From contig NZ_CP070506.1 of NCBI RefSeq assembly GCF_016925675.1, positions 3,470,501 to 3,534,500 on the forward strand: a DNA stretch of 64,000 nucleotides, written 5' to 3'. A program made the translations under genes and the position numbers. Source of the stretch: Pseudomonas hygromyciniae (lineage in GTDB: Bacteria; Pseudomonadota; Gammaproteobacteria; Pseudomonadales; Pseudomonadaceae). Shown here in pieces: positions 59,104 to 63,624 of this stretch (its first letter is position 1; the number at the start of each line of letters is the position of its first letter). The notes beneath the pieces were generated by a model. It was not told where the DNA came from, did no database searches, and saw only the letters and a program-made list of their open reading frames with translations.

Positions 59104-59131
59104 GGGATCTCTCCTTAAACATGGGAGAAAT

Positions 59132-59195
59132 TTAGCTTACGGCTAATGTCGTAGCAAGGAATATTTAGCTTTGAGCACATTTAGCATTGAGCTAA
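59132..59195. promoter_or_regulatory. OR-like operator cluster
   Basis: Three sites in the gap between cro- and cI-like genes: TTAGCTTACGGCTAA (59132-59146), TTAGCTTTGAGCACA (59165-59179) and TTAGCATTGAGCTAA (59181-59195). The matching cluster at 62818-62956 supports binding by the same repressor. Confidence 0.75.
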
Positions 59196-59215
59196 ACGCT
59201 GGCATTCTTGCCCGC

Positions 59216-60034
59216 ATGGATATTTATGCGATTCGTAAACAGCAACTGATCAGCCTTATAGGCAGCCAGCGAAAAGGCGCGTGCGCCGAGCGCTGGGGAA
59301 TGGCGCCTGCGCACCTGAGTCAGATTTTGTCGGACAAGACGGCGAAGAATTTGGGGGACGACGTAGCGCGGAGAATCGAGTCGATCGAGGGGCTACCTAG
59401 AGGTTGGTTTGACTCCGTATCACCAGACGAAGAACCGACCACAGGCGCTCACTTAGGCGAGGTATCCGTACAGACAGCGGCTGACCAGATAAAGCAGATG
59501 CTTTCGAAGGTCAAAGGGTTATCGAGCACCGCTCGTGACAGGATCATTGCGGCCGCTGACGAGTCGAGTAACGTCATAACCGTTGACTTCTCTCGCCCAG
59601 GCCAGGTCGGCGATGAAGTGTGGATCGCTCACTATGATGTACGCGCAGCGATGGGCGGAGGCCAGATCCCGCACGAATACCCGGAAATGCTCCAGGACAT
59701 ACGGGTCAGCCCCAAGCACCTGCGTGACCTGGGCGTCACCTTCAAAGAGCACTTCCACCTCAAGATGATCACCGGATGGGGTCAGTCGATGGCCCCGACG
59801 ATCAAGGATCGCGACCCCCTGCTCGTGGACATCACGATCCGGGAGTTTACAGGCGACGGTATCTACCTCTTCTCCCACGACGAAATGCTGTACGTGAAGC
59901 GCCTGCAGAAGAAAGGGAAGGACCGCTTCAAGATGATCTCGGACAACAAGCACCATGATCCCGAGGACATCCGGGTGGACGACACCCACATCCTGGCCCG
60001 GGTGCTTTATGTATGGAACGGACAGCCGGTATAA
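59216..60034 (+). CDS. CI-like phage repressor (HTH + S24)
   Basis: 272 aa from ATG 59216. N-terminal HTH (RKGACAERWGMAPAHLSQIL) and a C-terminal S24/LexA-type domain with Ser191 (GWGQSMAPTI) and Lys228 (MLYVKRL) as the self-cleavage dyad; the likely cleavage region is around AAMGGGQ (144-150). Should keep the lysogen silent and be inactivated by RecA during DNA damage. No strong ribosome site; repressors of this kind are often leaderless or weakly translated. Confidence 0.85.
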   Translation: MDIYAIRKQQLISLIGSQRKGACAERWGMAPAHLSQILSDKTAKNLGDDVARRIESIEGLPRGWFDSVSPDEEPTTGAHLGEVSVQTAADQIKQMLSKVKGLSSTARDRIIAAADESSNVITVDFSRPGQVGDEVWIAHYDVRAAMGGGQIPHEYPEMLQDIRVSPKHLRDLGVTFKEHFHLKMITGWGQSMAPTIKDRDPLLVDITIREFTGDGIYLFSHDEMLYVKRLQKKGKDRFKMISDNKHHDPEDIRVDDTHILARVLYVWNGQPV

Positions 60035-60038
60035 CGCC

Positions 60039-60269
60039 ATGGCTCTGACCAAACCCAACCAGCAGCTGCGCCGCGAACTGAAAGAGGCTGCAGCCCTACT
60101 CAAGTGGTCTGGCGTTGATTTGTGTGTCTTTGCCAAATGCCTTCTGGCGGCAGGGGACGAGCAAAGCGCTAACGATATGATGAAGATCGCGCTGAGTTTT
60201 CAGGAAACTGAGGACAAGCTGGCGGGGTATGCGGAAGAGGTAAAGATTGGCGGAATAGAGCGCGGATGA
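60039..60269 (+). CDS. hypothetical phage protein, 76 aa
   Basis: ATG 60039, five bases after the repressor stop. Helical (QQLRRELKEAAALLKWSGVDLC, AGDEQSANDMMKIAL). Co-transcribed with the repressor, so expressed in the lysogen. Function unknown. Confidence 0.55.
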   Translation: MALTKPNQQLRRELKEAAALLKWSGVDLCVFAKCLLAAGDEQSANDMMKIALSFQETEDKLAGYAEEVKIGGIERG

Positions 60270-60387: not shown

Positions 60388-61539
60388 ATGAAAAAAAACC
60401 TTGATATAAACTCAGCTCACAGGCTGCGCGCAGCTAATAAGCGAAATCGCCGAGCACTGAGAGTTAAAGGCCCAGGGGTTTTAGGATATGTCAGCCTTAG
60501 ATACTTAAAGCCAAAGTTCAAAGACCTAAAATTTACTTACAACTCATTCAATCCGACAGTATATTCACCACCTGAGCTTGATATGTATGCGCGCTCCAAT
60601 CTCGAGCTGTTTTCAAACTTTCTTGAAAACCTTAGACTTAGTTCAAAATACAATAACCATGTGATTATTTCATTTAAAGGAACCAACAAAATAACCGCAT
60701 GCGCAGGGCTTCGTCTATTAGCCGAAGTTTCTCACCTATTAAAAATTCACCCAACACTTTCCTTTGGTTGCTCATTTGCGAAGAAGCGGCGTAACCGAAA
60801 TAAAAAAAATGATAACCAGATAGAAAAAGCATTGCAGGAAATAGGCTTTTTTGATGCCATTCGACAGCCTAATTTTTTGCCCTCACGCAGCGAGGGGGTT
60901 GCGGTATGGCAACAACTTTCCGGAAATCTTGCTGATGGAAGTTTAGCTGCAAGTCTGCTCAACAATCTACCTAGTTCAATATCAAAAATATCTAAATCCC
61001 ACTTATATAAGGGGGCGATTGAAGCGATGGCCAATAGCGTAGATCACGCCTACCCTCCAGAAGAGATTGAAAGCTCTAATACCGAGAACAGGTGGTGGAT
61101 GCTAGTAGGAAAAAAACAAAACAGCATAACCCAGATCATTTGCGACCTAGGTGTTGGTATACCAGTAACTTTGCCGAAAAAACACGAAGAAAGTACACTC
61201 ACTACTATTTTTAGGGCAATAGGAATACTAGGTAGTGGCGATGCTGAATTGATACATGCTTCAACATTTATAAAAAGGTCTAGAACAAATCTCCCATATA
61301 GAGGCAAAGGAGGCGCGGACATAAGATCGATCACAGAGCACTTTCCTTCTGCGCTGCTGTCTATCCGGAGCAACAGGGGGTGCTACGTGGTAGCTGGACT
61401 CGACCACCCAGGCATTGTCTCGGGCGGGTATAAGGAGATCCCGGATGCACAGGGTCGCGAGTGGTCTGCGAGCTACAATGGATCTATTCATGGTACTATG
61501 ATTGAGTGGACTGTGTCCTTGAAGGATTTAGAAGCATGA
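60388..61539 (+). CDS. GHKL ATPase-like protein, first gene of cassette
   Basis: 383 aa, AT-rich. GHKL nucleotide-binding motifs are clear: N-box E212-A-M-A-N216-S-V-D-H-A, G1 box D253-L-G-V-G-I, G2 box G306-K-G-G-A-D. Residues about 70-165 (HVIISFKGTNKITACAGLRLLAEV) look like a STAS-type strand-helix fold. This recalls SpoIIAB-type anti-sigma kinases or other GHKL switches rather than a membrane sensor kinase; there is no His phosphoacceptor domain or TM. The next gene starts inside its stop (ATGA) and encodes a STAS-like protein, the natural partner of such a kinase. Confidence 0.8.
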   Translation: MKKNLDINSAHRLRAANKRNRRALRVKGPGVLGYVSLRYLKPKFKDLKFTYNSFNPTVYSPPELDMYARSNLELFSNFLENLRLSSKYNNHVIISFKGTNKITACAGLRLLAEVSHLLKIHPTLSFGCSFAKKRRNRNKKNDNQIEKALQEIGFFDAIRQPNFLPSRSEGVAVWQQLSGNLADGSLAASLLNNLPSSISKISKSHLYKGAIEAMANSVDHAYPPEEIESSNTENRWWMLVGKKQNSITQIICDLGVGIPVTLPKKHEESTLTTIFRAIGILGSGDAELIHASTFIKRSRTNLPYRGKGGADIRSITEHFPSALLSIRSNRGCYVVAGLDHPGIVSGGYKEIPDAQGREWSASYNGSIHGTMIEWTVSLKDLEA

Positions 61540-61880
61540 AAAGTATATTTGTTACATCGTTCTCAGAATTTCCGGGGCCTAGATATATTGATTTAGGTCC
61601 TTTTTCTGGAGAGTTATTCAGGAAAAAAGTTTTGCTACCTGAAATCGAAGCCAACAAAGGCGAAATCACTGTTGTGCTTGATGGGGCATTCGGATATGGG
61701 TCTTCGTTCTTGGATGAGGCTTTTGGTGGTTTAATTCGTGATGGAGTACCAAAAGAGATAGTTTTAAAAATATGTGACAACTTAATCTCTAATGATGACC
61801 CTTCCTTAAAGCTAGAGGTAACTCAATGGGTTAACGAGGCCATAGCCCATGGAGAAGCTTTTAATGGCAACAGAATCTAA
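61536..61880 (+). CDS. STAS-like DUF4325 protein, second gene of cassette
   Basis: 114 aa; ATGA overlap with the GHKL gene. Diagnostic block TVVLDGAFGYGSSFLDEAFGGLI (about residues 45-67): a strand, then a Ser pair at 56-57 and FLDEAFGGL, the signature of DUF4325. In anti-anti-sigma STAS proteins a Ser at this place is phosphorylated by the partner GHKL kinase; that activity is inferred here. Confidence 0.8.
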   Translation: MKSIFVTSFSEFPGPRYIDLGPFSGELFRKKVLLPEIEANKGEITVVLDGAFGYGSSFLDEAFGGLIRDGVPKEIVLKICDNLISNDDPSLKLEVTQWVNEAIAHGEAFNGNRI

Positions 61881-62355
61881 TACTGGACTAGATATAGGTT
61901 CAATTGTAGGTTGGACGTTCGCCATCGTCGGACTTGTCGCAACACTAGTTGGCTGGTATGTGCGAGGCCAACAACAAAGATGGCTAGCAAAGAAAAAAGA
62001 CGTCCATGACGCCATTGATCGCGCAATCAAATCCCTAGTAGACTTTGAGGATTGTGCGCTCAGTTTCTGGATCGATAAGGATACAAAGCACTCTCAGCAT
62101 CATGTCCTTGCATTGCATAGACGATTGGTTGTAGCCTTCAAGCAAGTGTCTGAGTTAAGCGAAAAAGACCTGCCTGTCCAATATATTTCTGACTTAAGAA
62201 AGCACTCCACTCTAGACTTTGAACAAGCTAAACGGCCGATCAGCCCCACTTCGCCGAGAGTTTCGAACATAGCATTAGCTTCGGGGCGATTGCTAAATTC
62301 GAGTTATCTATTGAAGTCATGGAAAAAAATTTCAGAGGCGAGTAAGCCAAGATAA
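61864..62355 (+). CDS. single-pass membrane protein, third gene of cassette
   Basis: 163 aa from ATG 61864, which has GGAGAAG 9 bases upstream; it overlaps the DUF4325 gene by 17 bases. One N-terminal TM helix (GSIVGWTFAIVGLVATLVGWYV), then a basic cytoplasmic helical domain (RWLAKKKDVHDAIDRAIKSLVDFEDCALSFW). Translational overlap ties it to the two genes before. A membrane effector controlled by the GHKL/STAS pair is a reasonable but untested reading. Confidence 0.7.
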   Translation: MATESNTGLDIGSIVGWTFAIVGLVATLVGWYVRGQQQRWLAKKKDVHDAIDRAIKSLVDFEDCALSFWIDKDTKHSQHHVLALHRRLVVAFKQVSELSEKDLPVQYISDLRKHSTLDFEQAKRPISPTSPRVSNIALASGRLLNSSYLLKSWKKISEASKPR

Positions 62356-62421: not shown

Positions 62422-62446
62422 AGCCCGCCATTGAGCGGGCTTTTTC
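62422..62446 (+). terminator. Rho-independent terminator of cassette
   Basis: AGCCCGC/GCGGGCT followed by five T, 66 bases after the third cassette gene. Confidence 0.8.
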
Positions 62447-62453
62447 ATGTCTG

Positions 62454-62765
62454 TCAGAAAGGCGACGCCTCTTCTTCCTGCTCAAACTCAACCTCTCCCC
62501 CGCCCTCCACCTCGACTTCTTGCTGTTCCCATCTCACCGTCACGCTACCGTCGTCATTGAGCGTCAACTCAAGCTCGTCCGTATCGGCGATCACGCCCAG
62601 CACCTCTTCCCATTCCCGTTCCCCGTCCGTGTCCAGGCGATGGATCGTCACCCAGCGCTGAGCCTGTGCCACCGGGTGGTTAATCATGGATGAGACGCGC
62701 AGCGCCAAGCGCTCCATGCCGCTCATTTCCTGTCGTGCTACCGGTGCCACATTCTTCTTCGCCAT
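62454..62765 (-). CDS. DUF1654 family protein, SOS-controlled
   Basis: 103 aa from ATG 62765. MERLALRVSSMINHP.AQ.QRWVTIHRLDTDGEREWEEVL and a Glu-rich end are typical of DUF1654, a small family of Pseudomonas and its phages. A LexA box lies 24 bases upstream. Confidence 0.8.
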   Translation of the reverse strand: MAKKNVAPVARQEMSGMERLALRVSSMINHPVAQAQRWVTIHRLDTDGEREWEEVLGVIADTDELELTLNDDGSVTVRWEQQEVEVEGGGEVEFEQEEEASPF

Positions 62766-62788
62766 GAAATTCCCTCCCAACTAAATGC

Positions 62789-62817: not shown

Positions 62818-62956
62818 ATAGCTCACTGCTAATGGGCGCGTAAAGCGTTTGTGGACCTCAGCCATCGGCTCGGAGAAGCCTGGCGGATCGCGATAATTTC
62901 GCCCACCGCTAAATATTTAGCTTGGAGCTATTGACGATATTTTAGCTTGGGGCTAA
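62818..62956. promoter_or_regulatory. OL-like operator cluster
   Basis: Three sites like those at 59.1 kb: ATAGCTCACTGCTAA (62818-62832), TTAGCTTGGAGCTAT (62917-62931) and TTAGCTTGGGGCTAA (62942-62956). A perfect palindrome GCTAAATATTTAGC (62908-62921) overlaps the second site. Probably controls leftward early transcription. Confidence 0.75.
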
Positions 62957-63624
62957 ATTAACCCCATCGCAGCGACACACAGCCACTGCGAAGGGCATCC
63001 GCCCACCGCTCTTTGGTTTTACCCCTTGCCGGATCACCACCGGCCCAGATTCAAAGGCAGCGATGAACCGGCCTAAACGGTTCAGAGGGTTGGCAACTGA
63101 CCCGGGCGTGCAGCGTAAAGCGCCAAGAACAGTTTTCCAGCGGGAGAACAAGCCGAAAGGCCCGCGGCTGGAGTGACATTCGATTCAAGCCGGTGACCGA
63201 CGCCAGTAGCGGGTCTCGGCCAGCTCCAAAAGATTTGAATTAGCGATCCCGATAGCATCGGCTGGGAACGCCGGACCTCATGCACCCTGCCCCACTCAAT
63301 CAGGGCACTTAGAGCTGTAGCGTGCATGTTGTAAGGACCTGTGATCCACGGCGAACAGATGCTGTTTGACGCTGTGAGTAGGAAGCTCGAAGCCCGCACC
63401 CATAACGAACCGCCGACCTGCAATCAGCAGCGGGATACGCGGCGCCGCCCTAGCGAAGAGGGAGCCACCGCTGACGCAACAAACCCAGGCCGTCGCCAGT
63501 AGCGGGCCTGGGCACCATTCCCCACCTCTATTACGTCAGCACTCCCCCCGCACCCATCGGCAACCAGCGGGAGGCATGAGTGTTGACGAATACAGGTGAA
63601 CAACCCGCCAATCTGGAGGCGACC
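62957..63624. other. early leader region, no recognised gene
   Basis: About 670 bases. Minus-strand frames exist but carry no recognisable protein. A short plus-strand frame (63359-63502, 47 codons) exists without a convincing ribosome site. The block CGCCAGTAGCGGG.CT occurs twice (about 63201 and 63494). May be a long early leader with antitermination elements; nothing specific found. Confidence 0.35.

Follow-up and report, generated by a model that had tools for sequence, protein, structure and literature searches.

A cassette of three genes, encoding a GHKL kinase-like protein (gene1), a DUF4325 protein (gene2) and a predicted membrane protein (gene3), lies behind the CI-like repressor of a prophage, and the three genes form one inherited unit. 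The kinase signatures and one serine of gene2 (Ser57) are invariant among its relatives, and gene3 usually carries a transmembrane-like (TM-like) segment. With a probability of about one half, the cassette is read here as a kinase-controlled growth-arrest switch in which gene3 would act as a membrane effector and a superinfecting phage would fail; for a defence role of the cassette, the odds are about even.

The cassette and its surroundings

The window (the whole stretch of DNA analysed, 64 kb) comes from a genome of 6.29 Mb (G000) and holds a tailed prophage that in parts is similar to structural genes of the Pseudomonas phages Cruim01 and phiAH14a; Pseudomonas is also the source of the closest named relatives of the cassette proteins. 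The first-pass annotation had described three overlapping AT-rich genes between a CI-like repressor and an OL-like cluster, and the coordinates, GC content, S24 match and operator scan all bear this description out (Table 1). The GC content of the cassette is 42.8%, versus 56.3% for the window, and AT-richness is a frequent trait of recently acquired cargo. Exact copies of TTTAGC-N5-GCTA occur at only four sites in the 64 kb, two flanking each side of the repressor-cassette block. With up to two mismatches there are 63 copies in the window against a chance mean of 42, chance having been computed at this laxity only.

Table 1. Features of the immunity region, in window coordinates
Feature	Position	Strand	Evidence or remark
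OR-like operators TTTAGC-N5-GCTA	59131..59196	.	exact at 59131, 59180
CI-like S24 repressor	59216..60034	+	Pfam Peptidase_S24, E 2.6e-18; PHROG 4 transcriptional repressor, E 1.8e-34
Small ORF between cI and cassette	60039..60269	+	PHROG 6388 (no assigned function), E 2.8e-17
gene1, GHKL kinase-like, 383 aa	60388..61539	+	
gene2, DUF4325, 114 aa	61536..61880	+	PF14213, E 2.1e-8
gene3, predicted membrane protein, 163 aa	61864..62355	+	AlphaFold2 model; TM helix
Terminator-like hairpin 3' of gene3	62422..62441	+	consensus scan only
DUF1654 protein gene just past cassette	62454..62780	-	Pfam, E 4.2e-26
OL-like operators	62916..62957	.	exact at 62916, 62941; one-mismatch copy at 62897

The repressor more likely starts at ATG 59216 than at TTG 59171, where its ORF opens, and the PHROG 6388 match of the small ORF begins at residue 29 of that ORF as listed. 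Gene1 and gene2 are joined by an ATGA overlap. For gene3, the start at 61864, within the end of gene2, is probably correct and the first-listed start at 61849 too early, because close homologues begin MAT/MST... and GGAGAAG precedes 61864. The suggestion that the cassette is closed by its own terminator stands insofar as a hairpin is present there, but such matches are only about twice as frequent in the region as in shuffled sequence (8 versus a mean of 4.4).

Distribution of the trio

Relatives of gene1 were collected at 30 viral-contig loci, at 37 loci from 84,980 species genomes and in 22 of 398 genus genomes (G000 included), the viral-contig and species-genome scans having relied on DNA patterns of the kinase boxes. 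With the window locus added via gene2, 90 loci were scanned, two of which are the window itself (L001 and L069). A DUF4325 gene adjoins gene1 in 89 of the 90, the exception being L024, which stops 52 bases past gene1. An ORF of 130-218 amino acids follows the DUF4325 gene in all 89, this third ORF being defined as the longest one starting between -150 and +300 bases from the DUF4325 stop. Removal of duplicates left 79 non-identical gene1 proteins, with L001, L024, L067, L068 and L089 also left out. Across these 79 loci the pairwise distances of the genes correlate (Spearman 0.69, 0.47 and 0.40), and none of 500 permutations gave values as high, although common descent of the hosts may contribute to it.

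An independent HMM-based sample gave the same arrangement: gene1 was found in eight of 398 Pseudomonadota genomes (one being G000), with DUF4325 beside it and an ORF following in 8/8, that ORF being TM-like in all except L112. Seven annotated records, comprising Marinobacter phage AS1, a Helicobacter prophage, one Vibrio and two Acinetobacter plasmids and two Escherichia coli prophages, likewise contain the trio, and in all seven gene1 matches its profile at E 4.6e-23 or better, gene2 at E 3.1e-21 or better, and the third gene has a hydrophobic segment of at least 1.55 on the Kyte-Doolittle scale. The expectation that the genes would be found together elsewhere is thus upheld, with the trio near complete as a unit in each of these collections (89/90 loci, 8/8 genomes, 7/7 records). 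A published table for Francisella phage KIRK gives, in this order, CI, a protein of 293 aa, DUF4325 and a TM protein of 125 aa, and the accompanying passage does not comment on them.

The trio is rare among 50,697 phage records, where one was found by gene1 and two by gene2. Close DNA relatives of the cassette were absent from phages, and in plasmids were limited to a 48-base stretch in one. As a simple, testable three-gene set it is also present in a few E. coli genomes (8/5426 match, and each of the eight holds 91% or more of the query cassette). In one copy (L124) the kinase gene is short and adjoins an insertion sequence. At L089 (1108-2046, minus strand) a single ORF of about 312 amino acids, likely a natural fusion, matches both the GHKL and the DUF4325 profiles; next to it comes a 146-aa ORF that has a TM-like segment.

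The kinase-like protein and the DUF4325 protein

The N, G1 and G2 boxes of GHKL ATPases had been recognised in gene1 at the outset, and both residue conservation and fold confirm them. E212/N216/H220, D253/G255 and G306/G308 are unchanged in 79/79 non-identical loci, a set partly picked by DNA patterns for the kinase boxes and therefore possibly biased towards invariance, and G257 is glycine in 78/79. The same residues are invariant in 18 loci found by HMM, including the window, with G257 kept in 17/18. In a fold search, SpoIIAB, RsbW and an anti-SigF factor are nearest (the best nine rows), with coverage mainly of residues 173-383, and residues about 171-383 are likely a SpoIIAB-like GHKL serine-kinase domain. 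Neither Pfam nor NCBIfam has a family that gene1 matches; in PHROGs it matches PHROG 3364 (no assigned function) at E 2.7e-37, and a precomputed assignment to PF13581, a GHKL ATPase family, is present on two among the 52 gene1 homologues listed.

The N-terminal half of gene1 probably includes a STAS-like domain behind a basic extension, judging from the predicted alpha/beta elements in its model. The rows of the fold search lie mainly in the kinase half, and similarity between the N-terminal half and DUF4325 was not detected by hhalign. The first 50 residues are modelled as one helix and loose coil. The N-terminal stretch is net positive in 79/79 sequences, with a median of +25 per 100 residues versus +3 elsewhere, a count in which one of the 79 sequences has just five residues in that stretch.

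Gene2 was correctly named as DUF4325 by the first-pass annotation, its score against PF14213 being 34.2 bits and the Pfam gathering cut-off 23. Among PDB sequences DUF4325 best matches that of a STAS protein (E 0.3), and gene2 is likely STAS-like. Ser56 and Ser57 had both been singled out as sites for variants; Ser57 is present in 79/79 loci and is, from this conservation, the candidate phospho-acceptor, whereas Ser56 is serine in only 73/79. DUF4325 is scarcely named in the open-licence literature, where two of 5.39 million papers (preprints not included) mention it.

The domain also has a life beyond this cassette, and the idea that DUF4325 always marks it was rejected. In the phylum sample, 11 of 31 PF14213 places lie within ORFs of 335-533 amino acids, and there are stand-alone cases (L094, L108 and L110) in which a kinase-like gene precedes DUF4325 and no TM gene follows. 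The long ORFs (L095, L097, L098, L104-L107, L109, L113 and L115) form a second, possibly fused class.

The third gene product

The description of gene3 as one TM helix plus a basic helical domain agrees with its AlphaFold2 model (pLDDT 84; helices 12-75, 83-104, 110-121 and 136-149, numbered from 61849), in which a long helix containing the TM segment is followed by three shorter helices, with almost nothing N-terminal of the TM segment. The helical part is probably cytosolic, because basic residues, as read by eye, directly follow the TM segment. T121 is invariant in an alignment of 39 sequences.

A TM-like segment (Kyte-Doolittle at least 1.2) is present in 72/81 distinct third genes versus 93/237 flanking ORFs of like size, unconfirmed ORFs being among these controls, and at a threshold of 1.6 the counts are 54/81 and 45/237. 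Nine of the 81 fall below the laxer threshold; the third gene of L112, at 0.77, has no TM-like segment. In L085-L088, from genus genomes, the sole segment above 1.6 lies near residue 155 and not N-terminally, and two topologies are possible in the family.

Gene3 is the fastest diverging of the three (median pairwise identity 0.16, versus 0.27 and 0.42 for the other two), and fast divergence is common in effectors. Weak constraint on gene3 would give a similar picture, and among closer pairs (86 pairs with gene1 50-90% identical) the excess divergence is modest, with identities of 0.58 for gene3 versus 0.64 and 0.68.

Gene3 itself gave only weak matches, to PHROG 30059 (0.002) and to PADLOC LeoBC (0.027). 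Among 88 third-gene proteins, eight Pfam families were matched at E 0.01, each of them by a single protein. In PADLOC, one of the 88 matches 'Cyclase' at 2e-7 and two match LeoBC, at 0.0013 at best; these matches perhaps reflect merely shared TM segments. A PIN domain or other known toxin was rejected as an identity for the third gene, with Pfam families at no more than 1/88 and PADLOC models at no more than 2/88. In the viral fold library, gene3 matches one unnamed 159-aa protein (E 1.5e-8, TM 0.83), perhaps AS1_39 of Marinobacter phage AS1, which is 159 aa long.

A search of PDB folds with gene3 returned nothing at E 0.001 or better, and its best rows, not significant at E 0.29 and above, are histidine-kinase sensor domains. 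Partner switches often stand under an upstream membrane sensor, and this loose resemblance to receptor sensor bundles can be read as favouring a gene3 that serves as a membrane sensor or anchor, responding to a membrane event such as DNA injection or depolarisation and steering the kinase-STAS pair, whose output would be another target, a host or phage regulator. Such a role appears unlikely: the gene3 model has almost no N-terminal part ahead of its TM helix, and the gene order matches that of VapKSC, whose third gene, according to the available text of PMC13373217, is a toxin.

Small membrane proteins encoded near prophage repressors are often superinfection-exclusion proteins, and gene3 could also be a moron product of this kind that constitutively blocks entry, with the kinase pair merely tuning its level. 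This is quite improbable, as it leaves the invariant kinase residues and Ser57 unexplained, along with the plasmid and chromosomal copies.

A role for gene3 as membrane effector of the switch is likely by analogy, and is a reasonable one because the RexAB system of a Pseudomonas putida prophage, in the available text of PMC12894663, pairs a DNA-binding sensor with a growth-suppressing membrane effector.

Relation to known systems and a proposed mechanism

Gene1, a putative kinase, comes near to the kinases of SpoIIAB-SpoIIAA and RsbW-RsbV in its modelled fold and has GHKL boxes; the cassette differs in having no sigma factor and in about 170 extra N-terminal residues of gene1. Lambda RexAB pairs a prophage-borne sensor with a membrane partner beside the repressor.

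Closer analogues are described in PMC13373217 (Chambers et al., EMBO J 2026). In that report, CapK is activated by ssDNA and phosphorylates Ser54 of CapS, an asparagine of the kinase and the STAS serine are both needed, and CapKS controls transcription of a neighbouring operon. VapKSC, a three-gene relative, appears to release a PIN toxin by the same logic, and the protection it confers against phage Bas42 is about 2-log; direct activation by ssDNA is reported there for CapK and not for VapK. The main text contains neither DUF4325 nor PF14213.

With CapK-CapS the cassette has in common a GHKL kinase with a preceding STAS domain (predicted in gene1) and a STAS substrate serine, and the invariant N216 and Ser57 are in line with the asparagine and serine required there (PMC13373217, available text). 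The N-terminal HTH of CapK and the DNA-binding wHTH of CapS set them apart, as gene1 and gene2 match no HTH family, and gene2, at 114 aa, has about the length of a lone STAS domain. With VapKSC the cassette shares its gene order, in which a STAS-GHKL kinase (predicted in gene1) is followed by a small STAS protein (STAS-like in gene2) whose Ser/Thr is invariant, and then by a third-gene partner. VapK (STAS and GHKL, without HTH) agrees with gene1 by fold in the kinase half, its STAS domain having a putative counterpart in the predicted alpha/beta elements of the N-terminal half; VapS, which has a short C-terminal region, and gene2, both small with an invariant Ser/Thr, are likened by description and not by sequence. 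The third genes differ, that of VapKSC encoding a PIN nuclease and that of the cassette a predicted all-helical TM protein, with no PIN family among the Pfam matches of 88 third-gene proteins. The cassette may thus be a variant of the kinase/STAS-gated system with a likely membrane effector, sharing logic and gene order with VapKSC and not its toxin.

RexAB as described in the available text of PMC12894663 shares with the cassette a prophage-borne sensor and a membrane partner, and differs in having neither a kinase nor a STAS protein. No match of the trio in NCBIfam, PADLOC, Pfam or PHROGs names Rex, and at E 0.01 the trio is without a PADLOC match. The earlier statement that no described system has these three parts needs qualification: the kinase/STAS logic is that of VapKSC, while a PIN toxin takes the place of the membrane protein there (PMC13373217, available text). 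For the kinase/DUF4325/membrane-protein trio itself, no description was found in the open-licence literature covered, which excludes preprints.

The partner-switch interpretation offered by the first-pass annotation has been strengthened by the SpoIIAB/RsbW-like fold, the invariant Ser57, the near-complete co-occurrence and the analogue VapKSC, for which there is published experimental work (PMC13373217). In the growth-arrest switch proposed here, expression of the cassette in the lysogen would probably come from the cI side. Gene1 would be a SpoIIAB/RsbW-type serine kinase with an N-terminal regulatory half, and gene2 its STAS-like substrate, which when unphosphorylated would keep the helical domain of gene3 inactive. 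The kinase may be activated by a signal that stems from infection or damage; in analogy to CapK/VapK this could be ssDNA, to which the basic N-terminal half of gene1 would bind. Once active, it would phosphorylate Ser57 of gene2 and so release gene3. Freed gene3 would then assemble in the inner membrane and halt growth, presumably by membrane damage, and the superinfecting phage would fail.

This reading is favoured by the co-occurrence and correlated distances, the SpoIIAB-like fold, the invariant N216 and Ser57, the basic N-terminus of gene1, and the TM enrichment and fastest divergence of gene3, as well as by the protection that VapKSC gives against Bas42 (PMC13373217) and the RexAB precedent (PMC12894663), each as given in the available text. 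It is weakened by the lack of a STAS fold match and of any family or PDB fold for gene3, by the rarity of the trio in phages, by the nine third genes under the TM threshold and by the modest divergence in close pairs. An ssDNA-triggered toxin would, moreover, fire also upon DNA-damage induction of its own prophage. If the reading is correct, the kinase/STAS switch that in the 2026 report serves a nuclease toxin and repressors (PMC13373217, available text) also gates a membrane protein, DUF4325 gains a role, and prophages own a phosphorylation-gated counterpart of RexAB.

Genomic settings

The cassette had been placed at the rex position of a prophage, and in viral contigs this position is common. 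Of the 63 loci whose upstream sequence is 1 kb or longer, 26 have a CI-type repressor profile match no more than 3 kb upstream, namely 21/30 viral and 5/33 genome loci, on the same strand except in L051. Three of the 21 viral matches (L015, L016 and L018) are weak, involving short genes at E 3.2e-5 to 2.2e-4, with L015 HTH-like by eye. Nine viral loci have no CI-profile match, and two of these (L017 and L019) have a short upstream gene that is HTH-like by eye. The restriction of the cassette to the rex position was rejected, given the Q-holin, plasmid and chromosomal copies and the few genome loci with CI. Prophages favour a few sites, and the cassette is not limited to these.

The position behind the repressor in 21/30 viral loci can also be taken to favour a regulator of lysogeny or stress, in which DUF4325 would switch the repressor or a host sigma factor with no role in phage exclusion, much as CapK/CapS is a transcription switch in the available text of PMC13373217. 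Gene2 matches no DNA-binding family in Pfam or NCBIfam at its 114 aa, and the trio also resides on plasmids and at E. coli Q-holin sites away from the repressor, which makes a purely regulatory role improbable.

Somewhat short of even odds, the growth-arrest switch may represent a widespread and previously unrecognised class of immune switches, in which a GHKL kinase and a DUF4325 antitoxin would gate a fast-evolving single-TM toxin in prophages (behind the repressor or at Q-holin), plasmids and chromosomes, as a membrane-acting sister of VapKSC that would do the job of RexB via phosphorylation.

In the two E. coli prophages (L133, 6005-7871, and L134, 5865-7740), the cassette lies antisense between antiterminator Q and holin, and is annotated as hypothetical, STAS-like and hypothetical. 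In Marinobacter phage AS1 the trio (AS1_41-AS1_39) is annotated as hypothetical throughout, and lies behind the small AS1_42 and opposite a Cro/CI-family gene. Five plasmids gave gene1 matches, and toxin-antitoxin genes are nearby in two of the three viewed.

The flanks of 36 genome loci (L033-L068, some prophage-like) were scanned as 125 proteins, giving raw counts from which no enrichment is claimed. Type I restriction, MADS, Mza and DRT are among the PADLOC families listed (the best 25 of 58, at E 1e-10 or better), and five integrases and four S24 peptidases are among the best 25 of 167 Pfam families.
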